A DNA stretch of 64,000 nt from Nitzschia sp. pyKryTriq1 (Eukaryota > Bacillariophyta > Bacillariophyceae > Bacillariales > Bacillariaceae): NCBI GenBank assembly GCA_956465555.1, contig OY101115.1, positions 868,001-932,000 on the forward strand. The letters are read 5' to 3'. Each line of letters opens with the position of its first letter. Positions within the stretch are counted from its first letter, which is position 1. Positions 23,388 to 39,262 of this stretch are shown here, in pieces. Made by a program: the position numbers and the translations under genes. Below the pieces are notes generated by a model that saw only the letters and a list, made by a program, of their open reading frames with translations, did not search any database and was not told the DNA's origin.

Positions 23388-26300
23388 ATGCGTCGAGGGT
23401 CGCGCTTCTTGGCAGTAGTACTGCCCACGGTCCTTGCGCTGGCAGTACTTGTGGTGCTTTCCTTACCTGCCACAGTCTCTGCAGCAGCCAAGGATAATGG
23501 CGATAATGCTCCTTCCCTTCCTTCTTCTTTTCTCAACCAGCTCCCTCGCATATTACAAGATAGTGGAATGGCCTTTCTTCCTCCCACTGGAGATATCGAT
23601 GATACGCAATGCAACATTGAAGATTTGGAGCGTGCCAATGACTCGCAATTGCATGCGATTTTTCAAGAATTACAACAAACCCATTTTTTCCGATCCTTTG
23701 TGGTAGATTTGGAACAAAAATGTCCATTGAGTCACTGGAGGAAATCATCACCTTTGCCGGCTCATGAAGAAGCAGAAGCAGAGGAAGAAGAAGAATTTGA
23801 GTGTTCAGGGGGTGCCGAGGAATTTGAAATGGATGACGATGCGGAACCGCTGTGTAGTGTAGATATTGGTGATGGTGATGCAGGAGATCTTCCATTTGGT
23901 GGTGGTGGAGATCCCTTTGGAGCCACCGTGTTAAAGTCCTTGAGCGAGCATGGGTTTTCGTCAACCGATCAGCAGGAAACATTTGATTGGAATCAACAAA
24001 CTGATATAATTGTGGGAGGAGACGAGACGCCCTGTGCTTCCGATGATGAAAGCAATATTCCTGATACCTTTTGGATGGATATGTGTAGCAACATTCGGGC
24101 ACAAGAGAATGGAAGCAATGCCAAACTCGTCAATTTAGCCTTGAATCCAGAGCGTAACACGGGATACAATGGTACTCATATTTGGAAGGCTATTTATGAA
24201 GAAAACTGCATAAGCACATCGGACGCCTGTTTGGAAGAGCGTGTCCTATATCGACTCTTGAGTGGTCTACATACGTCCACGACGTTGTCGATTGCCAAAA
24301 ACTACTATCCTCCCTCCAAACGCAAAGGGCGGGTTGATTGGGAATCCAATCCAAAATACTTCATGGACAAGTTTCAACACCATCCCGAGTACATTCGGAA
24401 CATGCACTTTTCATATGTCGTCATGTTGCGTGCCATCAAGAAGGCTTCCCAATATCTGTACAACTACGATATTCAATCGGGTAATGCCTTGGAGGATCAA
24501 GCCAGTAAAGTCTTGATGAAGAGATTGTTGGACACGTCCATTTTGAGGAGCTGTTCCGGCGTCTTTTCGGCCTTTGATGAATCCATCATGTTTCAAGAAG
24601 ACAACGACTTTTCTTTGCAACATAACTTCAAGGGTGTCTTCCACAATATTTCCAGTATTCTGGATTGCGTCCAATGCCAGCAGTGTAAATTACATGGCAA
24701 AATGGGCATGTTGGGATACGGGACGGCTCTCAAGATCTTGTTTGTCAAGCCCGAGCTGATTGATCTTGAACCCAACGAAGTAGTGGCATTGATCAATACT
24801 GCTGCCCGGCTTTCCGAAAGTACAGTTGAAGTCCGAGAACTCACCACTCAATACTGGGCTGAGAAACAGCAGACAGACAAAGATGGTACCGCAGGAACGA
24901 AGAAACTTCCTCAATCCACACGTCAATCGGTCAGTTCACGGCGGCAAGGAACAAGTAGTAGTATCTTTGGCATCGAAAGTTTAGACATGCTGGACATGAC
25001 CGTGGGCGTGATTGCTGAACTGGGGAGTTTGGAAGCCATTTCGCTTGAGCGTGAACAGGAATTGATTCAGTTGGCATTGAGCAAGCACCCCGAATTGTTG
25101 ATCCTCGGCAGGCACTACGCCCATGATGCACAAAAATTCCTCGCCATGTCGGCATCCATCGGTGCCATGGGAGCTACAGTTGAAGCGTTGCCGGATGCCA
25201 TTGTGATTGGTAGTGGTCTTGCAGGGCTGGCCGCTACGCTCAACATTTTGGACCGTGGAGGCACAGTAATGGTTCTTGAAAAGGAACATTTGGTCGGAGG
25301 CAACTCCAACAAGGCAAGTTCCGGGATCAATGGCTGCTGTCCTCAGAACAACACCTACAATGATTCAGTAGAAGCATTCCGAAACGATACTGTTCGATCG
25401 GCTGGTAAGGTGGCTGACCTTGATTTGATTGAGACGTTGGTTACCAACAGCGGCAAGGCAGTTCGATGGCTTCAAGAACGAGCCAACGTCGATTTGTCGC
25501 TTTTGGCGCAGTTGGGTGGTCACTCGCATAAACGGACTCACCGCCCTAGCAATGGTATGGCAGGCGCTGAGATTATCTATCAAATGCAAAAGGCCGTGCG
25601 CGCCTACGAGAAAACAGGAAAGGTCAAAATTCTCGTCGATACCAAGGTCACAGGTCTAATCACAGAAGATGATCGAGTAGTTGGTGTCACCTGTGAATCC
25701 ACCATCGACGGCAGCGTCCAAGAACTCCGCGCCGACAATGTCATTTTAGCAACCGGTGGTTTCGCATCTGATCGATCAACTGGATCGTACTTGGACCAAA
25801 ATCGACCCGAGCTCATGGCCTTTCCTGCCACCGCGGGTGCCTTTTCGACCGGTGATGGCATCACGTTGGCCACGACCCTAGGTGCGGCTACTCGGGATAT
25901 GGAGAAGGTCCAGATCCACCCCACTGGATGGGTTGACCCGAAAGATCCCAAGAATCCAACCAAGATCTTGGCTGCTGAATTGATGAGAGGCGTGGGTGGA
26001 ATGCTTATCAACGACGATGGCAAGCGATTCTGTAATGAACTCGGAACGCGGGCATATGTTACGGACAAGATGCTGCAACACAACACCAAGTTTGCCAAGA
26101 CTGGAAAATGGGACATCAAGGACGAAGTACCCACTTTCAATCTAGTACTTTCGTCTTCGGCGGCCGCCGATGGAAAGAAACACGTAGACTTGTACACACA
26201 CAAAGGATTGCTGACAAAGGTAGAAGGTTTGGATGCCCTGGCGTCAAAAATGAAGGTTGACAAGTCGACCCTGCAAAGCACACTTCTTAGCTACCAGAAG

Positions 26301-26900
26301 TCTGCCCAAGCAGGAAAGGACGAGTTTGGAAAGGTTTCGTTCCGAGGCGCGCCCGCCCAAGACTTGTCCACAGAAATATTTTATGTGGGGAAAGTGACAC
26401 CAGTACTTCATTACTGTATGGGTGGGATCAAAATCGACAACGAAGGTCATGTCTTGAGAGAAGATGGGACACGCATTGAGGGACTGCATGCTGCTGGTGA
26501 AGTAACTGGTGGGGTTCACGGTGACAATCGACTAGGTGGAAACTCTTTGTTGGAGTGCACTGTCTTTGGAACCATTGTCGGGCAAAGGATTCCTGTTAAA
26601 AAGAGTGCCGCGATACATTCTGCAACCGTGTCTGAAAGTATGGTCAAGGATGAAGCAGAGCCACTACCCGTCATCACAATGGAAGAACTTGCGAAGCACA
26701 ACACGGAAGACGATATCTGGGTTGCCATCGAAGGCATCGTTTATGATTTCACCGAATTTGCGCACGAACATCCTGCTGGCTTTGAAAGCATTTTTGATCT
26801 CGCTGGCATGGATGGTAGCGAGGCATTTGCAGCAGTACACAACACAGCTATGCTGGACGACTTTGAAGAGGATCGCAAAGGCATCCTCCTGACATCGTGA
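23388..26900 (+). CDS. ERO1-fumarate reductase-cytochrome b5 fusion protein
   Basis: A single uninterrupted ORF of 1,170 aa. Residues 1-32 form a signal peptide. Residues ~65-490 are ERO1: NPERNTGYNG then IYEENC, YRLLSGLHTS and RNMHF supply the FAD-binding R, T, W, S, H and R positions, and the active site is C427-VQ-C430-QQ-C433-KLHGK. Two Cys in an acidic loop (ECSGG and LCSVD) probably form the shuttle disulfide, more widely spaced than usual. After a linker, ~600-1060 is a soluble fumarate reductase: FAD motif GSGLAG (608-613), catalytic H844, R888, H1008, R1048 and proton-path E864/R867. Residues ~1096-1165 are a cytochrome b5 with heme His 1128 (HPAG) and 1151. Inference: PDI-to-ERO1 electrons pass to fumarate inside the ER. 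There is no C-terminal retention signal. Confidence 0.95.
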   Translation: MRRGSRFLAVVLPTVLALAVLVVLSLPATVSAAAKDNGDNAPSLPSSFLNQLPRILQDSGMAFLPPTGDIDDTQCNIEDLERANDSQLHAIFQELQQTHFFRSFVVDLEQKCPLSHWRKSSPLPAHEEAEAEEEEEFECSGGAEEFEMDDDAEPLCSVDIGDGDAGDLPFGGGGDPFGATVLKSLSEHGFSSTDQQETFDWNQQTDIIVGGDETPCASDDESNIPDTFWMDMCSNIRAQENGSNAKLVNLALNPERNTGYNGTHIWKAIYEENCISTSDACLEERVLYRLLSGLHTSTTLSIAKNYYPPSKRKGRVDWESNPKYFMDKFQHHPEYIRNMHFSYVVMLRAIKKASQYLYNYDIQSGNALEDQASKVLMKRLLDTSILRSCSGVFSAFDESIMFQEDNDFSLQHNFKGVFHNISSILDCVQCQQCKLHGKMGMLGYGTALKILFVKPELIDLEPNEVVALINTAARLSESTVEVRELTTQYWAEKQQTDKDGTAGTKKLPQSTRQSVSSRRQGTSSSIFGIESLDMLDMTVGVIAELGSLEAISLEREQELIQLALSKHPELLILGRHYAHDAQKFLAMSASIGAMGATVEALPDAIVIGSGLAGLAATLNILDRGGTVMVLEKEHLVGGNSNKASSGINGCCPQNNTYNDSVEAFRNDTVRSAGKVADLDLIETLVTNSGKAVRWLQERANVDLSLLAQLGGHSHKRTHRPSNGMAGAEIIYQMQKAVRAYEKTGKVKILVDTKVTGLITEDDRVVGVTCESTIDGSVQELRADNVILATGGFASDRSTGSYLDQNRPELMAFPATAGAFSTGDGITLATTLGAATRDMEKVQIHPTGWVDPKDPKNPTKILAAELMRGVGGMLINDDGKRFCNELGTRAYVTDKMLQHNTKFAKTGKWDIKDEVPTFNLVLSSSAAADGKKHVDLYTHKGLLTKVEGLDALASKMKVDKSTLQSTLLSYQKSAQAGKDEFGKVSFRGAPAQDLSTEIFYVGKVTPVLHYCMGGIKIDNEGHVLREDGTRIEGLHAAGEVTGGVHGDNRLGGNSLLECTVFGTIVGQRIPVKKSAAIHSATVSESMVKDEAEPLPVITMEELAKHNTEDDIWVAIEGIVYDFTEFAHEHPAGFESIFDLAGMDGSEAFAAVHNTAMLDDFEEDRKGILLTS

Positions 26901-30066: not shown

Positions 30067-33000
30067 ATGAGTGATAGCCAGAGCGAATACTCTGGTGATG
30101 ATCGGTCCGCTTCCCAGAGTGGTGGTAGTTCCAGGAGCCGAACGTCGCAGCAGGATGAGGAGACCAGCAATACCAGCCGACGACGAGACGACGACGAATA
30201 CTCGCGTTCCCGGAGCTCTCGTTCCTCGCGTTCGCGATCTGCAAGTCGATCTTCTTCTCGGGGAGGGAGTTATTCATCACGGTCACGGTCTCGGTCTCAG
30301 TCTCGATCTCGGGGGAGTCGTTCGTCCTCACGGGGGAGCTATTCCTCTCATCCTTCGCAATCATCCCGATCGCGATCCTCTGGTTCTTCACGAGACTCAC
30401 GATCGCGTTCTCGGGGGAACTATCGTTCAGATGAGGAGGAAAGTAGGAGCCGTACAACGACAAGCCAAGCATCTTCGCGGGGAAGCGATACCAGAAGTCT
30501 TGGCAGCAAGAAGAGTGATGCAAGTCGATCTACTGCTGGTTCTCGGTCATCCAAGAGCAGGGATAGTGGTCGTAGCAGCAACTTTTCGGGGAGTCGTAGC
30601 CACAAAAGTAGCCATTCGAAAAGTTCTCGATCACAAAAAAGTAATGCCAGCAGTCGATCATCTCGAAGCAGACCCTCCTCGGAACGAAGTGGAAGAGATA
30701 GTCCGAGTTTCCAGGAAGAAACGGTAGACGAAAATGATAGCAAACGCAGCGGTTACTCGCAGGGGTCACGATCGAAAAGAAGCCGTGATGATGATTCAGA
30801 CAGTCGATCATCCTCGCGGCGGAGCTCTCCTACAGAATCACGGAGCAAGGCGTCGGAACGAAGCGGGAGAGACAGTCCAAGTTTTGAGGAAGAAACAGTA
30901 GACGAAAATAATAGCAAACGCAGCGGCTACTCGCAGGGGTCACGGTCGAAAAGGAGTGGGGGGTCAAGTGCTCGATCATCGCAGCGGAGTTCTTTCACGG
31001 GAACTCGAAACAAGTCCTCGGAACGCAGTGGAAGAGATAGTCCGAGCTTTGAGGAAGAGACATTCGACGAGGGAAGCAAGCGAAGCAGCTACTCAAAGGG
31101 GTCGCGGTCGGAAAGGAGTGGTGATTCAGGCAGTCGATCATCGCGGCGAAGTCAACCATCGGAACACAGTGGAAGAAACAGTCCCAGTTTTGAGGAAGAG
31201 ACATTCGATGAGGGTAGCAAACGAAGTAGCTACTCAAAGAGTGCTCGTTCACATAGAAGTGGTGATTCAGGCAGCCGATCATCACGACGGAGTTCTTTCG
31301 GAGAAAGTCGAAGTCGATCATCGGAACGAAGCGCCCGAGACAGCCCCAGTTTCCTCGAAGAAACTGTCAACGATGAAAGCACATTTCCAGAGGACAGTCG
31401 CAGCAGAAGCAGTCGGTCGAGGAGTTCACGTTCGCAAAGAAGTAGGAGTAGTAGGTCGTCGCGCCGGAGTTTTACTGAATCAAGAAGCCGATCGCCGGAA
31501 CGAAGGGGACGAGATCATGATGATCGGAGTTTTGAGAGTATCCTGGGTGATCCAGGCCCAGTTCTGGAGGACAACTACAACGATGACGCCAGCACCTTTT
31601 CAGATGCAAGTCTGAGTGATAAAGAGAGTCAAAGGAAAATCAGAGAAAAGGATCCCGATATTTCTGGACAGTCCACCGATGGTGAAGCCGTTCTCGAGGG
31701 CAGTTTTAGTGACGCAAGTTTTGAAAGCAAAGCCCAACGCTCCATGGGAAGTGCCAAGGAAAAGCAGCAAACCCCGGTTCGAAAGAGCCCCAAGAAGGAA
31801 ATGCAACAATCACCGGTTCGAAGGAGCCCGAAGGAAGAAAAGCACCAAAGCCCGCTTCGAAAGAGCCCGAAGGAAGAAAAGCACCAAAGCCCGCTTCGAA
31901 AGAGCCTGAAGGAAGAAAAGCAGCAACGTCCAGTTCGAAAGGGCCCGAAAGGAGAAAAGCAGCAAAGCCCAGTTCGAAAGAGCCCGAAGGGAGAAAAGCA
32001 GCAAAGTCCAGTTCAAAAGAGTCCGAAGGAGGGAGAACAGCAAACTCCGATAAAAAAGAGCCCGAAAGCCAGAAAAGATCCCATCGTCGAGTCTAGCCCA
32101 AAGCCACATATCCATGAAAGTGAGGACCCCTTCAAGTCTCCCCGAAGGCGAAGTCCTAAACGAGATCAAACGCCTCAAACCAAGAACAAGGGTTCCGTTG
32201 GCGAGCCTGAGAAGAGGTCAGAAGGGCAGACCGGAGAATTGAAAGTGAGGTTTGAACCAGTAGTCCAAGTGCAACGATGTAGATCACTGGCAATACTGGG
32301 GACAATGTCGGACGCGGGCAAGTCGATTATGACCGCAGGTTTGTGTCGTGTCCTTGCCAACAACGGTGTTCGGGTGGCACCGTTCAAAGGGCAGAACATG
32401 AGCAACAACGCAGCTCCCGCTCTTTTACCCGACAAGGAACGTCGAAGAAGGTTATATAAATCGTTCCAAAAGGCCGTCGGGTATGCTATTCCGACCCCAC
32501 CAACTGATCAACCTGATACAGGGTATGGTGAAATCGGCACGGCTCAGTCACTTCAAGCAGAAGCATGTCGAATAGTTCCAAGGGTGGAAATGAACCCTGT
32601 TCTTTTGAAGTCTGGTGGACAAAATGATAAGGGAGAGTATATGTGTAGCGTTCTTGTTCTCGGCAAGGAGGTTGCTCGGGAGACCTACGGTGACCTGGGT
32701 AAACGAACCACCGACTTGCGAACGATGGTGTTAGAATCGCACCAGGCACTTGCCGAAGTGACTGAATGCGACGTTGTGCTAATGGAAGGAGCAGGCAGCT
32801 GCACTGAACTGAATCTAATGGAACGTGACATTGTCAATTTGCCCCTTGTAAGGTCGTTGCAATGCCCATGGTTGCTAGTGGCAAACATCGATTGCGGGGG
32901 TGTCTTTGCTCAAATCGTTGGAACGGTAGGTTGAATGATTCGAAATTCAACATCACTCTAATTTCTGTATCTTACTTGTCGCTGCTTTCGAAGAAAATGT

Positions 33001-34086
33001 GTGTATCAAAAAGAGACTGGTCTCTTTGCGCAGGGATAATTGTGAACAAGCTTCGTGGCGAGGCTAAGTATTTTGAACCAGGTCCAAAAATGATCGAGGT
33101 GAGTATGCGCGCTGTGCCCCAAAACCTGTAGGGCACTGATAATGACTTCGACAACCGAGCGACTCTCATCAGGTACTTGCTTTCAGGAAATGGTCGGGAA
33201 ACCTGTTTTTGTGGTCCCTTTTCTCAGAGATTTGAATTTACCGGAAGAGGATGGTGTTGGTGTTGAGCGTCGTCTAGCATGGGAAGGAACTGGTCACCTT
33301 CACCCAGAAGCGGATGACAATGAACTTGATAAGAAGCCGGTTGTGGTTGTAGTATCTTATCCTCACACAGCAATTTCAGACGATTTTTGCCCACTAGAAG
33401 CTGACCCGCGGTTCAGAGTGGAGTGGAGGAGGCGCCGAATCCCGCGACCCTACCCTCACACAACTGCTGTCATCATGCCCGGTTCTCGGTTGACCAGGAA
33501 GGACTTGAAATGGCTGCACGATTCTGGATGGGCTGCATTTATACGAAAGCACATTGCTTTGGGTGGAAGTGTGCTTGGTCTGTGTGGTGGCTATCAAATG
33601 CTTGGTTGGTCAGTTGATGATCCTGACAACATCGAGGGTTTTGTGGGATCGAATAAGGGTTTGGGGCTACTGCCGATTCGGACCAAGATTGAGCCACCAG
33701 AAGTCAAAGTCGTCGCCCCAAGACAAGGAAAGCTCTATCCGTCAGGCAAACCGGTCGAGGGTTTTGAATTGCATTGCGGGCAGAGCCACATCGTGATGGA
33801 GCTCGGTCAGCCCTGGGGCGACGAGATCCATCCTTTGGTGGTATTCGATGATGGGAAACCTGAAGGCATGTGTGCACGCACGGTTCGGGGAACGTATATG
33901 CATGGAATATTGTGGTCACCCGAAGCACGAGTTGAACTCTTAGTGCCCGACAAATCAAAGTTTCCGGTACTTTCTGCTGACCTCAAGATCATAGATCCAC
34001 TCGACCGCCTAGCTGAACATCTCGAATCTTGCGGGCTCGATTTTGAAACATTGCGGCAAATGATATCTTCTCACAGAAATCGATGA
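30067..34086 (+). CDS. RS-rich domain fused to cobyric acid synthase (CobQ/CbiP), three exons
   Basis: Exons 30067-32925, 32994-33098 and 33187-34086 (phase 0, introns 68 and 88 bp) give 1,287 aa. Residues 1-~480 are an arginine/serine-rich domain with internal repeats. Residues ~560-665 carry KSPKEEK-type repeats. Residues ~738-1287 are a full-length CobQ: P-loop GTMSDAGKS (745-753), APFKGQNMSNN, EIGTAQSLQAEA, MEGAGS, NIDCGGVFAQIVGT, then the glutamine amidotransferase domain with nucleophile Cys1121 (LGLCGGYQMLG) and His1227 (YMHGIL). CobQ amidates adenosylcobyrinic acid a,c-diamide in B12 synthesis, a pathway not known complete in eukaryotes. No stop or splice site separates the RS part from CobQ, so a real fusion is likeliest; an internal promoter for CobQ alone cannot be excluded. 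Confidence 0.85.
30676..31380 (+). repeat. Coding repeats in the RS domain (5 units)
   Basis: Five degenerate units of about 130-175 bp, each starting with codons for SERSGRDSPSF-EEET (near 30678, 30853, 31018, 31150 and 31321) followed by KRS-YS-GSRS and SRSSRRS blocks. The DSPSF core is the least variable part. Confidence 0.8.
31752..32060 (+). repeat. Coding KSPK repeats (39-42 bp units)
   Basis: About eight tandem units encoding variants of KSPKEEKHQSPLR or KQQSPVR, between the RS domain and CobQ. Two adjacent units near 31835-31915 are almost identical, suggesting recent slippage. Confidence 0.85.
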
Positions 34087-34132: not shown

Positions 34133-36382
34133 CTAGTTTCTTTCATGAGTAAATTTACCAACTAGGTACGGTATAGCCATCTTCAATTGGTCTTTGTCGT
34201 GGAAGCGTTCGAAGAACGAAGTGGCATCCTGCCCGGCCAATTCGTGGATTATTTCCGGGCCACCGGGGTGCTCCTCGCTGAATTGTGTCAGGTTGTATAC
34301 CATACCATCTATGACCAACCAGCAGTCATCAGAATTATCGTGTTTCGCGATATCTTGGGCAGAAAGCTCCAGGATCTCGCTTCGACAGGTTTCTGCACCG
34401 GCTTCGCCGGCAAAATAACCGATATGATACCTTTCGACTCTGGTCAGAGTGATGGTAGAGTGAACGCTCAAGAAAGTTTTGGTGGCTTCCTTTCCACAAA
34501 GAGAGGAGATAGCACTCATTCCGCCTACATGATATAGAATGAAGTTCGTCAAATCATAAACCTTGCCATGCAACCCAACAAAGCAGTCTGTAGGTTCCTT
34601 GTGCTCAGATAGTTCGGTGAGGGTAAAATTTCTCTGAGGTTTCAAAAGTGTTTGAGGCGGTGATCTATTCGGACATTGTGCCTTCGCTTCATCACTTTGG
34701 TATCCGTTTAGAGAAATCTTTTTCCCAACTATCGTCCCAAATACAGCGCACTCCAGCAGAGAGTTACCCCCGAGCCGATTGTTCCCATGGACGCCTCCGG
34801 TCACTTCTCCGACCGCATACAGACCAGGAATGATACCCCCGTCGTTCCCAATCACTTCCCCAGAAGGACTGATCTTCACACCTCCCATGCAGTAATGAAG
34901 CACGGGCGTCACCTCACCTACATAGTACTCTTCCGCCTCCAAGTCTTCACCGGGAAGGCCTTCAAAATCTGTCTTTCCAAACACATCACCACCACCCTCA
35001 CCAGCCGCAACCGACTGATATTCTCGAAGCGTGGAAACAAGGGTGCCGTGTGGGATCTTCAAGTGGTTTGCCAAGCTCTCCAAGCCCTTCAGCTTCGTCA
35101 TCAAGCCTTTTCGCATGTACGTGCCGATGTGCCGTTCGGCACTTCTGGCTGCCTCCGCTGACAGTAGCACGTAGAAGGTTGGGATAGTTGTGTCAGGATT
35201 CCAGGTTCGACTTTCGCTGTATTGGACATCGTGCCCCAACATCTTGTCGGTGACATAGTCTCGTGTCCCCAGCTCATTGCAAAAGCGTTGGCCTTGTTTG
35301 TTGAGCAGAATACCACCCACACCTCGCAAGAGCTCCGCTGCCAACACTTTGTGGGGGCTCGTAGGATCTGCCGGATCGACGAAGCCAGTGGGATGGATTT
35401 GGATCTTTTCCATGTCTCTGGTCGTTGCCCCGATATTTTGTGCTAAATGAATTCCATCGCCCGTAGAGAATAAGCCTGCTGTTGCTGCCATATTTTGTAG
35501 CTCTGGTCGATACTGGCGCAATAGAGACCCCTCGGATCGGTCTGAGGCGAAACCCCCAGTAGCTAGGATAACGTTGTCGGCTCGCAAAAGTACAGGTACT
35601 CTACCTTTTCCCTGCACCCGTACACCCCTGACTCGACCGGCTGAATCCTTTACTATGCGTGTCACAGAGTGTTCCACGAGCACATGAGCCTTTCCTCTGG
35701 ATTCAAAGGCATGGATAGCATTTTCCATGGCTGTCATGACTTCGACCCCAACAAAGCCTGCAGTCGGTCGATGCGTGCGCTTTCTAGAGTGACCTCCAAG
35801 CTGCACCTGTGGAGATGATAGATCCACTCCCACTCTCTGCCGTAACCACTTCAAGGTCTTTGCACTTTTTCCAACGAGGACCGTGACAAGTTGTTTGTCC
35901 ACGATATCTCCAGCCGATTGCAAGGTATCCTGCAAGAATAGATCTAAGGTATCATTTGTTGGCTCACTCTCAAGTGCAATAACGGTAGAATTTCCACCCT
36001 GAAAGCAGCACCCATTGATCCCCGAGCTGGCCTTGTTGGAATTTCCGCCCAAGAATGGCTCTTTTTCTACTATCCAGACGGTCCCCCAGCGATCCAAGAT
36101 ACTGAGAGCGGCTGTTTGACCGGCCAGTCCGCTTCCAACGACGATGGCATCTGCTATTGGTGTTTGCTCAAAGAATGAAGGCTCCACCAATACATTATCA
36201 TTCCCTGCTGATGATGAAGTTCCATTATGTGCGTTATTTTCTGCCCTGGCCGTGACGATGCCAGAAATACAGAAACTAAAAATAAAAATCATGACGAGGT
36301 CGACAACCTGACCGCGATAAACATTTTGCCGAAGACAACCAAACCGAGCACTATGATATGGAAGAGACATTACGTATGTCAA
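34133..36382 (-). CDS. Fumarate reductase-(cytochrome b5)2, paralog A
   Basis: 749 aa, single exon. A hydrophobic signal/anchor (VVDLVMIFIFSFCISGIVTA, residues ~26-46) precedes a flavoprotein domain at ~75-560 with VVGSGLAG, GGNSNKASSGINGCC, IHPTGF, AELLRGVGG, NELGTR, LHYCMGG and NNRLGGNSLLE, covering the catalytic His/Arg set of soluble fumarate reductases. Two cytochrome b5 domains follow (~590-660 and ~672-745). The first has HVGG instead of HPGG but keeps both likely heme His; the second has HPGG and FHDK. It presumably acts in the secretory lumen, taking electrons via b5 heme to reduce fumarate. Unlike the upstream fusion it lacks ERO1. It shares an 820-bp core with paralog B. Confidence 0.9.
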   Translation of the reverse strand: MTYVMSLPYHSARFGCLRQNVYRGQVVDLVMIFIFSFCISGIVTARAENNAHNGTSSSAGNDNVLVEPSFFEQTPIADAIVVGSGLAGQTAALSILDRWGTVWIVEKEPFLGGNSNKASSGINGCCFQGGNSTVIALESEPTNDTLDLFLQDTLQSAGDIVDKQLVTVLVGKSAKTLKWLRQRVGVDLSSPQVQLGGHSRKRTHRPTAGFVGVEVMTAMENAIHAFESRGKAHVLVEHSVTRIVKDSAGRVRGVRVQGKGRVPVLLRADNVILATGGFASDRSEGSLLRQYRPELQNMAATAGLFSTGDGIHLAQNIGATTRDMEKIQIHPTGFVDPADPTSPHKVLAAELLRGVGGILLNKQGQRFCNELGTRDYVTDKMLGHDVQYSESRTWNPDTTIPTFYVLLSAEAARSAERHIGTYMRKGLMTKLKGLESLANHLKIPHGTLVSTLREYQSVAAGEGGGDVFGKTDFEGLPGEDLEAEEYYVGEVTPVLHYCMGGVKISPSGEVIGNDGGIIPGLYAVGEVTGGVHGNNRLGGNSLLECAVFGTIVGKKISLNGYQSDEAKAQCPNRSPPQTLLKPQRNFTLTELSEHKEPTDCFVGLHGKVYDLTNFILYHVGGMSAISSLCGKEATKTFLSVHSTITLTRVERYHIGYFAGEAGAETCRSEILELSAQDIAKHDNSDDCWLVIDGMVYNLTQFSEEHPGGPEIIHELAGQDATSFFERFHDKDQLKMAIPYLVGKFTHERN
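34720..35539 (-). repeat. 820-bp core shared with paralog B (copy 1)
   Basis: The sequence appears identical to 37441-38260 (offset 2,721 bp) across the flavin/catalytic core. Identity stops abruptly on both sides, where the paralogs differ clearly. Gene conversion is the likeliest cause. Confidence 0.88.
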
Positions 36383-36844: not shown

Positions 36845-39262
36845 TTAGTGGGAAAACTGTCCAACCACGTAAGGTTTAATCATTTTCAGTTTCTCCTTGG
36901 AGTGGAAGACTTCGTAGGACGCAGTAGCGTCCTTTCCCGCCATTTTCTGAATGATGTAGGCTCCACCGGGATGTCCTTTGCTGAATTCAGTAAGGTCATA
37001 AACTGTTCCATGTATCACGACCCAACATTCATCGGTAGAATTATGAAGCATGAGGTCCTTTTCTATGATGCGCTGCAAAACCGGTTCCTTGCCGGATTCT
37101 TTGGGCACGTTTTCAGTAGAGAGGAGATGACCCATAATGTGCTTTTGGACTTGGCTCAAAACGTTGGACGAGTGAACGCCCAAGAAGGTTTCGGTAGCCT
37201 CGATTCCACAAAGCGAAAGGATTGAGTCACTACCTCCAGGATGGCGGTGAAGAAAGGCAGACAGATCGTAAACTTTCCCATCCAACCCCACGAAACAGTC
37301 CGTCGGCTTGCCGTGCTCAAATAACTCTGCGAAGGTAAAACTCCGCTCGAGCTGTGGTGATAGAATCATAGGAGACGGTACAACTGGAGAGTGATGGGAT
37401 TTTTCACCATCCGTTCTTCCTTTTCCATCCAACGATACAATTTTCCCAACTATCGTCCCAAATACAGCGCACTCCAGCAGAGAGTTACCCCCGAGCCGAT
37501 TGTTCCCATGGACGCCTCCGGTCACTTCTCCGACCGCATACAGACCAGGAATGATACCCCCGTCGTTCCCAATCACTTCCCCAGAAGGACTGATCTTCAC
37601 ACCTCCCATGCAGTAATGAAGCACGGGCGTCACCTCACCTACATAGTACTCTTCCGCCTCCAAGTCTTCACCGGGAAGGCCTTCAAAATCTGTCTTTCCA
37701 AACACATCACCACCACCCTCACCAGCCGCAACCGACTGATATTCTCGAAGCGTGGAAACAAGGGTGCCGTGTGGGATCTTCAAGTGGTTTGCCAAGCTCT
37801 CCAAGCCCTTCAGCTTCGTCATCAAGCCTTTTCGCATGTACGTGCCGATGTGCCGTTCGGCACTTCTGGCTGCCTCCGCTGACAGTAGCACGTAGAAGGT
37901 TGGGATAGTTGTGTCAGGATTCCAGGTTCGACTTTCGCTGTATTGGACATCGTGCCCCAACATCTTGTCGGTGACATAGTCTCGTGTCCCCAGCTCATTG
38001 CAAAAGCGTTGGCCTTGTTTGTTGAGCAGAATACCACCCACACCTCGCAAGAGCTCCGCTGCCAACACTTTGTGGGGGCTCGTAGGATCTGCCGGATCGA
38101 CGAAGCCAGTGGGATGGATTTGGATCTTTTCCATGTCTCTGGTCGTTGCCCCGATATTTTGTGCTAAATGAATTCCATCGCCCGTAGAGAATAAGCCTGC
38201 TGTTGCTGCCATATTTTGTAGCTCTGGTCGATACTGGCGCAATAGAGACCCCTCGGATCGATCGGAGGCGAAACCCCCAGTAGCTAGGATAACGCTGTCA
38301 CTTCGCAAAAGTACAGGCTCGCCACCCTGTTTGTCGCTTTTTTCGACCTGCACGCCCCGGATCCGACCAACGGCATCTTTCACGACACCAGTCACCTTGT
38401 GTTCGACGAGTATTCGGGCATCGCCTGATGATTCATAGCTACGAATGGCATTTTCCATAGCATTCATAATTTCTGCTCCTACAAATCCTACCGTTGGTCG
38501 GTGAGTGCGTCTTCGTGAATGACCTCCGAGTTGTACCAGCGGTGCCGATAGTAAATCCACTCCCACACGCTCCTGCAACCATTTCAATGCAGGTGCACTT
38601 TGCTGTACGAGCGTTTCAATTAGGTTGATATTCGCGACGTCCCCAGCGGATCGAAAAGTATCCTCATAAAACAAGGCCAAGGTATCGTTGGTCACTGGAC
38701 TGAACGAGGATGTCATGATGACCCTTGTTGAAGAATTTCCATCGTGTTGTTGTTCTTGCTGAAAGCAGCAACCATTAATGCCGGAGCTAGCCTTGTTGGA
38801 ATTTCCGCCTAAGATTGGCTCCTTCTCGATAATTATCACCCTTCCTCCACGGTCCAAAATCTGTAGGGCTGCGGTTAAGCCAGCCAGTCCGCTGCCGACA
38901 ACGATACCATCTGCGATCGGTGATTGCTCAAAGAAAATGGAGGGTATCGGTGATTGCTGCTTGTTGGCTTTCTGATTATTGATAAGATGAGGGGTGACCA
39001 AACGCCCACGCAACGGTCGCTTCTTTGTCAAAGACGCCAAAGGCACTTGTTTTGTTGCTATCCTCTCATCTTTCGTGACAATGGCCGTCGGCCATGTCCA
39101 ATAAATAGAAAAACACGAGAACAGCAGAAGGGCCAGACCGATCATCACTTTGTCGTCACCATTGCATGGAGGCTGCTTGCGCTCCCAGCGATGCCGATGG
39201 GGACCACGACGACTGTGCTGAGTTTGTAACGGAGAAGGATGTCGTCGTGAGAACGTCGTCAT
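36845..39262 (-). CDS. Fumarate reductase-(cytochrome b5)2, paralog B
   Basis: 805 aa, single exon. A basic ~37-residue N-terminus precedes one transmembrane segment (VMIGLALLLFSCFSIYWTWP), suggesting a type II signal anchor with the catalytic part in the lumen, where paralog A has a signal-peptide-like start. The flavoprotein domain (~118-620) has GSGLAG, GGNSNKASSGINGCC and the same catalytic motifs as paralog A. Two cytochrome b5 domains (~640-715 and ~728-803) both keep HPGG plus a second His (GVHSSN, VFHSKE). The sequence outside the shared core differs widely from paralog A, including the linker and both b5 domains. Confidence 0.9.
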   Translation of the reverse strand: MTTFSRRHPSPLQTQHSRRGPHRHRWERKQPPCNGDDKVMIGLALLLFSCFSIYWTWPTAIVTKDERIATKQVPLASLTKKRPLRGRLVTPHLINNQKANKQQSPIPSIFFEQSPIADGIVVGSGLAGLTAALQILDRGGRVIIIEKEPILGGNSNKASSGINGCCFQQEQQHDGNSSTRVIMTSSFSPVTNDTLALFYEDTFRSAGDVANINLIETLVQQSAPALKWLQERVGVDLLSAPLVQLGGHSRRRTHRPTVGFVGAEIMNAMENAIRSYESSGDARILVEHKVTGVVKDAVGRIRGVQVEKSDKQGGEPVLLRSDSVILATGGFASDRSEGSLLRQYRPELQNMAATAGLFSTGDGIHLAQNIGATTRDMEKIQIHPTGFVDPADPTSPHKVLAAELLRGVGGILLNKQGQRFCNELGTRDYVTDKMLGHDVQYSESRTWNPDTTIPTFYVLLSAEAARSAERHIGTYMRKGLMTKLKGLESLANHLKIPHGTLVSTLREYQSVAAGEGGGDVFGKTDFEGLPGEDLEAEEYYVGEVTPVLHYCMGGVKISPSGEVIGNDGGIIPGLYAVGEVTGGVHGNNRLGGNSLLECAVFGTIVGKIVSLDGKGRTDGEKSHHSPVVPSPMILSPQLERSFTFAELFEHGKPTDCFVGLDGKVYDLSAFLHRHPGGSDSILSLCGIEATETFLGVHSSNVLSQVQKHIMGHLLSTENVPKESGKEPVLQRIIEKDLMLHNSTDECWVVIHGTVYDLTEFSKGHPGGAYIIQKMAGKDATASYEVFHSKEKLKMIKPYVVGQFSH
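37441..38260 (-). repeat. 820-bp core shared with paralog A (copy 2)
   Basis: Second copy of the shared core, equivalent to 34720-35539. It even contains the same antisense and alternative-frame ORFs, which is expected only if synonymous sites are also identical. Confidence 0.88.

Follow-up and report, generated by a model that had tools for sequence, protein, structure and literature searches.

The window analyzed here, a 64-kb stretch of contig C1 of the diatom Nitzschia sp. (genome of 40.65 Mb in 20 contigs), carries a gene that joins an ERO1 domain, a soluble fumarate reductase (FRD) domain and a cytochrome b5 domain in a single chain (Table 1). Its open reading frame is read in the standard code and contains no introns and no N. 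A Pfam scan of the protein recovered ERO1, FAD_binding_2 and Cyt-b5, all above cut-off, in agreement with an earlier note on this DNA that had described the three domains in one intron-free frame of 1,170 amino acids (aa).

Table 1. Positions of the fusion, its parts and related genes (window positions unless a contig or locus is given)
Feature	Position	Strand	Remarks
ERO1-FRD-cytochrome b5 fusion gene	23388..26900	+	single exon, 1170 aa, ATG to stop
Hydrophobic N-terminus, residues 1-32	23388..23483	+	signal peptide or signal anchor, by sequence
ERO1 domain, residues 88-479	23649..24824	+	Pfam match, E 3e-82
Acidic shuttle-cysteine loop C139-x16-C156	23802..23855	+	replaces the usual CxxxxC
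ERO1 active site C427xxC430xxC433	24666..24686	+	conservation
Conserved helical linker module, residues 528-588	24969..25151	+	AlphaFold models, conservation
FRD domain (FAD_binding_2), residues 603-1054	25194..26549	+	Pfam match, E 8e-82
Trp848 (HPTGW)	25929..25931	+	sequence comparison
Cytochrome b5 domain, residues 1097-1155	26676..26852	+	heme ligands His1128 and His1151; Pfam match, E 3e-18
Paralog A	34133..36370	-	FRD and two Cyt-b5, hydrophobic N-terminus
Paralog B	36845..39262	-	FRD and two Cyt-b5, hydrophobic N-terminus
Further FRD (L010)	G000:C1:3302239-3303759	+	frame without b5 match in own-genome search
Stand-alone ERO1	L009 4205-5476 (G000:C1)	-	395 aa after removing an 84-nucleotide GT-AG intron
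VKOR-like	G000:C1:155640-156089	-	possible alternative disulfide-forming enzyme
VKOR-like	G000:C9:531268-531546	-	possible alternative disulfide-forming enzyme

Occurrence of the fusion among diatoms

A homologue search over about 5.8 billion proteins returned 469 matches, and the counts given for fusions rest on the best 120 of these; motif counts refer to these 120 fusion clusters, and residue-conservation counts and fusion trees to 86 fusions. Absence from relatives, an assembly join and two separate products, the possibilities that the earlier note had raised against its own reading, were each checked. According to the precomputed Pfam column, ERO1, FAD_binding_2 and Cyt-b5 occur together in 120 of 120 clusters among the matches listed. 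Two of these proteins are shorter (829 and 909 aa) and the others measure 1095 to 1388 aa. P0001, a protein of a second assembly (source "lgn"), agrees with the window protein from residue 8 onward, with S243R as the sole substitution besides its own start codon. Eleven of the 120 entries carry MMETSP names (P0015, P0031, P0036, P0046, P0065, P0081, P0087, P0090, P0099, P0104 and P0119), which we take to be RNA based, and each is one chain. Because the second assembly matches and all listed clusters carry the three domains, an assembly error does not account for the join. A gene-model or assembly artifact merging two genes, whose sole argument is the caution of the earlier reader, has a negligible probability in the face of these clusters, the second assembly and the transcriptome-derived entries, and was ruled out.

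Genera named among the matches listed were Nitzschia, Cylindrotheca, Pseudo-nitzschia, Leptocylindrus, Mediolabrus, Cyclotella, Skeletonema, Asterionellopsis, Thalassiosira and Detonula, with Nitzschia sp. Nitz4 and Cylindrotheca as the nearest named relatives. Four taxonomy identifiers that were checked belong to Bacillariophyceae, Plagiogrammaphyceae, Thalassiosirophyceae and Leptocylindrophyceae; the remaining named genera are, we presume, diatoms as well. Most of the listed rows are nameless, so that a diatom origin holds for the named rows, none of which is non-diatom. A tree of the 86 fusions contained several deep lineages. The ERO1-FRD-b5 fusion is thus real and widely kept among diatoms. 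A search for fusions outside diatoms, with a yeast Ero1 fragment joined to Gly/Ser/Ala filler, returned 18 long ERO1 proteins, of which 16 bore fungal names, one was plant named and one nameless. FAD_binding_2 was absent from all 18, but the query missed the diatom fusions too and so had no power. The named holders presumably include both planktonic and benthic genera, and therefore the fusion looks like a general diatom trait rather than a niche adaptation; the earlier suggestion that it suits dark or anoxic life proved unspecific for the same reason.

No description of an ERO1-FRD fusion was found among the papers listed from the open-licence literature, a search that left subscription journals and preprints outside, and the available portions of two papers on darkness and anoxia (PMC10407231, PMC3660698) do not mention the fusion protein. 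One orthologue is labeled "fumarate reductase (NADH)" in one database, and the fusion sequence has apparently been deposited without being recognized.

Domains, shuttle loop and linker of the fusion protein

The ERO1 half matched the PF04137 profile with 277 bits against a cut-off of 27. All 86 fusions have its active-site cysteines C427, C430 and C433, and the motif CVxCxQCKLH is present in all 120 listed. We take R187, T189, W200, S228, H231 and R260 of yeast Ero1 to be the residues of its flavin adenine dinucleotide (FAD) site. In the fusions, FAD-site residues T258, W266, S292 and H295 are invariant (86/86) and R256, the equivalent of yeast R187, is kept in 80, while the position of yeast R260 is occupied by Lys in 76, Arg in 7 and Gln in 3. 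By sequence, the closest solved structures are yeast Ero1p and human ERO1A, and the predicted structure shares the solved Ero1 fold. The ERO1 half is a putative thiol oxidase.

The outer shuttle cysteine pair of ERO1 is usually CxxxxC. In the fusions, a putative shuttle pair stands at the expected place: C139 is present in 85 of the 86 proteins and C156 in all of them. The spacing is C139-x16-C156 in the window protein, and between 13 and 28 residues intervene in all 102 fusions that could be scored by pattern (18 of the 120 were unscored). A typical loop reads CxGGxxELDEDAEPLC, a spacing of 14 being the commonest (89 of 148 loops), and Asp and Glu make up 41% of the loop residues against 2% for Lys and Arg (148 loops). 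These results bear out the earlier description of this loop as acidic and unusually long and show in addition that it is conserved among the fusions. One loop was found in 57 of the scored proteins, two in 44 and three in one; Thalassiosira, Skeletonema, Cyclotella, Mediolabrus and Detonula include two-loop members, and a single loop was counted in Leptocylindrus and in the named members of Nitzschia, Cylindrotheca and Pseudo-nitzschia. The loop region is disordered in the AlphaFold model. As a side observation, the doubled acidic loop occurs in many of the entries P0051 to P0119, and its Asp-rich spacing is reminiscent of calcium-binding loops.

The middle part of the protein scored above cut-off for the flavocytochrome c subfamily TIGR01813 of NCBIfam, and family profile and fold place it with the soluble fumarate reductases of the flavocytochrome c type. 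Its closest solved structure, both by sequence and by fold, is yeast Osm1 (fumarate reductase 2); on structure comparison, the predicted folds of the two halves matched Ero1 and Osm1, respectively. Catalytic residues H281, E301, R304, R326, H435 and R477 of Osm1 correspond to H844, E864, R867, R888, H1008 and R1048 of the fusion, invariant in 86 of 86, as are the fumarate-binding serines and glycine. With six of six Osm1/Fcc3 catalytic residues, the FRD half is predicted to be a fumarate reductase. In a library of viral structures, the top match was M1GXT4, an FRD-like viral protein, and others at E ≤ 0.001 were mostly other flavoproteins. Four residues past the catalytic His844, Trp848 of the HPTGW motif is present in 119 of the 120 listed fusions; Osm1 and the three FRD paralogs that were compared carry Phe there. 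Of the 205 near-invariant positions of the fusions, 12, Trp848 among them, differ from each of the three paralogs, gaps being counted as differences. The b5 domain matched PF00173 with 66 bits (cut-off 23.7), and its axial ligands His1128 and His1151 are kept in all 86 fusions. The claim of catalytic completeness therefore held for the FRD residues, CxxCxxC and both heme histidines.

Between the two flavoprotein halves, residues 528 to 588 form four helices in both AlphaFold models. The predicted local distance difference test score (pLDDT) was 84 to 95 for 10-residue blocks in model 1 (model residues 501-560), apart from 53 for the block with the first residues, and 79 to 93 in model 2 (residues 471-530). 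D536, E556, L559, A563, L573, Y577 and F584 are near invariant in the fusion alignment, and the stretch ahead of the module (about 495-527) is variable. The module matched no Pfam family, and comparing its sequence with PDB entries gave nothing significant.

Localization, the second ERO1 and the FRD paralogs

The N-terminus of the fusion is hydrophobic and the protein is probably secretory; the ER location assumed in the earlier note, in the lumen, is likely. In Phaeodactylum, a "fumarate reductase flavoprotein" (B7FVF5) has four N-glycosylation sites according to the accessible part of PMC8678454, and a diatom FRD therefore seems to enter the secretory pathway. B7FVF5 may be the fusion or a paralog.

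A PF04137 search of the genome found two places only, the fusion and a stand-alone ERO1. The latter has ordinary CxxxxC shuttle cysteines (FECYSETCE), and used as a query it returned proteins with an ERO1 domain alone in all 120 matches listed (of 403). Its N-terminus begins MMNYRFNMIVGLLVGAAHGFSVP; taking the diatom plastid presequence motif to be a signal peptide followed by Phe at the cleavage site, this start resembles such a presequence. Among complete-looking N-termini (of 120 each), [AGSC][FW] lies just past the hydrophobic core in 50 of 54 stand-alone proteins versus 17 of 76 fusions; this looser motif was picked after inspection of those sequences, and the stricter first motif did not separate the groups (6 of 84 versus 4 of 86). 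Both kinds of ERO1 occur in Cylindrotheca closterium, C. fusiformis and Thalassiosira profunda. Since the second ERO1 is plastid-like, the genome search found an ordinary secretory N-terminus on no ERO1 other than the fusion; no stand-alone ER-type ERO1 (ER, endoplasmic reticulum) was seen in the genome or among the matches listed for relatives. It would be unusual for an ERO1 to serve a plastid or periplastid compartment, and the stand-alone form has many diatom relatives.

Two FRD paralogs, A and B, lie 7 to 12 kb downstream of the fusion on the opposite strand. They resemble it in a 54 to 55% identical FRD, a C-terminal b5 and a hydrophobic N-terminus, and differ in lacking ERO1, in carrying two b5 domains and in having Phe for Trp848. 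An FRD tree was built with Osm1 as root and with paralogs A and B and the further FRD (L010) as the only comparators. In it the 86 fusions formed one group (support 0.68) beside A and B (support 0.98), and L010 fell outside. Together with the neighboring FRD-b5-b5 genes, this tree fits the joining of ERO1 to an FRD-b5 family member before the sampled diatoms split, and it points with moderate confidence to one fusion event. Over a tract of 877 bp the tandem paralogs A and B are 99.3% identical, compared with mostly about 55 to 75% by 100-column blocks, which looks like recent gene conversion within old paralogs. Between the fusion and the paralogs, 30067-32934 (+) and 33142-34086 (+) encode CobQ/CbiA-type nucleotide-binding and GATase_3 domains, cobyric-acid-synthase-like; these domains follow a same-frame Ser/Arg-rich stretch of about 700 aa and are apparently split by introns.

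Proposed electron route and comparison with known systems

We consider it fairly probable that the fusion acts in the ER lumen of diatoms as a thiol:fumarate oxidoreductase made of one chain; its lumenal location, the direction and route of its electrons and fumarate as the physiological acceptor are inferred. PDI-type partners would reduce the acidic shuttle pair C139/C156, and the electrons would pass on through C430/C433 to the ERO1 FAD. Transfer to the FRD FAD could be direct or could use the tethered b5 heme, a redox residue such as Trp848, or both, and the FRD FAD would then reduce fumarate to succinate, with O2 as an alternative but not obligatory acceptor. Textbook potentials make electron flow from thiols to fumarate energetically favorable and put b5 close to fumarate. 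The two enzymes of the Ero1-Osm1 system are able to meet in the fusion, being one chain; tethering would remove their affinity problem, and the added b5 heme could bridge the distance. Coupling of the ERO1 half to the FRD half is plausible.

Several observations weigh against this reading. AlphaFold placed the ERO1 and FRD halves relative to each other without confidence (predicted template modeling scores of 0.58 and 0.57). Equivalents of W295, F297 and F362 in the second flavin pocket of Osm1 are missing from the fusions (mostly T/S/G/N, I/V/T and L/H, respectively), while K76, S78, L298 and Y363 are retained and P162 falls on a gap. The fusion was therefore not classed as an Osm1-type oxidase of free flavin, and since paralogs A and B also lack these aromatics, the change is not fusion specific and was not used as evidence for direct docking. 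None of the 120 listed fusions ends in a KDEL-like sequence, which leaves ER retention unexplained; this is not fatal, because Arabidopsis EROs are reported, in the accessible part of PMC9516139, as type II membrane proteins. Sequons are not enriched (7.3 per fusion versus 7.85 in shuffles), and glycosylation was dropped as an argument on that account; three sequons of the ERO1 domain are conserved in 73, 82 and 86 of the 86 fusions. The genome also holds two VKOR-like places and five Erv-like matches, so the fusion need not be the sole source of disulfides. Finally, use of O2 by the fusion is compatible with all of the data.

Two other explanations accept the fusion and deny the coupling. The ERO1 half may be an ordinary O2-using oxidase and the FRD-b5 half an independent lumenal redox enzyme that keeps flavin oxidized or balances lumenal reductants, so that the fusion merely colocalizes the two. 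The ERO1-less FRD-b5-b5 genes 7 to 12 kb away imply that FRD-b5 has a job of its own, and the unconfident docking, the disordered shuttle loop and the variable linker stretch are in keeping with such independence. However, the models fold the conserved helical linker module with confidence, every listed cluster retains the fusion, and a stand-alone ER-type ERO1 was seen neither in the genome nor among the listed relatives; we regard mere colocalization as unlikely, though worth keeping in view. Still less probable is that the FRD half reduces another enoate, or that b5 is the main entry for electrons from another lumenal donor, with thiol oxidation uncoupled. The flavoprotein family does include urocanate reductase, and the b5 heme ligands are kept in all 86 fusions, but so are all six catalytic residues of Osm1 together with the serines and the glycine that bind fumarate, and no solved structure is closer than Osm1 in sequence or fold.

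Oxygen-free disulfide formation in eukaryotes is an open question, and in yeast Ero1-Osm1, a leading candidate, the two proteins interact only weakly. That diatoms widely keep a natural fusion of the two is genetic evidence, of an independent kind, for their functional coupling, and it offers a single purifiable protein with which to decide the thiol-to-fumarate question. If the thiol:fumarate reading is true, diatoms might fold the proteins they secrete without oxygen, and their secretory output would be tied to fumarate and succinate metabolism, which would be relevant in dark, anoxic sediments. A broader proposal, which we hold tentatively and at somewhat less than even confidence, is that the diatom phylum rewired ER disulfide formation: ERO1 would be permanently wired to FRD, folding would proceed without O2 and without H2O2, electrons would leave as succinate, and the stand-alone ERO1 would be kept for the plastid or periplastid space. 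In this proposal the acidic loop, doubled in many lineages, would be a new device for thiol entry, perhaps tuned by divalent ions.

The shuttle cysteine spacing of yeast Ero1 is ordinary. Yeast Ero1p and Osm1 are the same two enzymes, with the same proposed route from thiols through the Ero1 FAD to fumarate and with conserved catalytic residues; in yeast, however, they are two separate proteins without a b5 domain or linker module, and the three pocket aromatics of Osm1 are not kept in the fusion. The parallel drawn in the earlier note is supported by the available part of Kim et al. (2018, PMC6242907), in which yeast Ero1 and Osm1 oxidize thiols with fumarate under oxygen depletion. The same source gives a dissociation constant of 150 to 200 µM for their binding, proposes that Ero1 occupies the place of the N-terminal heme domain of bacterial Fcc3 and calls a direct Ero1-Osm1 electron path controversial (PMC6242907). 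Fcc3 of Shewanella is a bacterial enzyme in which the donor is that heme domain rather than ERO1; like it, the ERO1 of the fusion stands N-terminal to FRD. ERO1s are described as handing electrons to O2 in the part of PMC9516139 at hand. With human ERO1A, yeast Ero1p and plant ERO1/ERO2, the fusion shares CxxCxxC, the FAD-site residues and the fold, and it differs from them in having an acidic, often doubled Cx13-28C loop in place of CxxxxC. To our knowledge, all known ERO1s stand alone.

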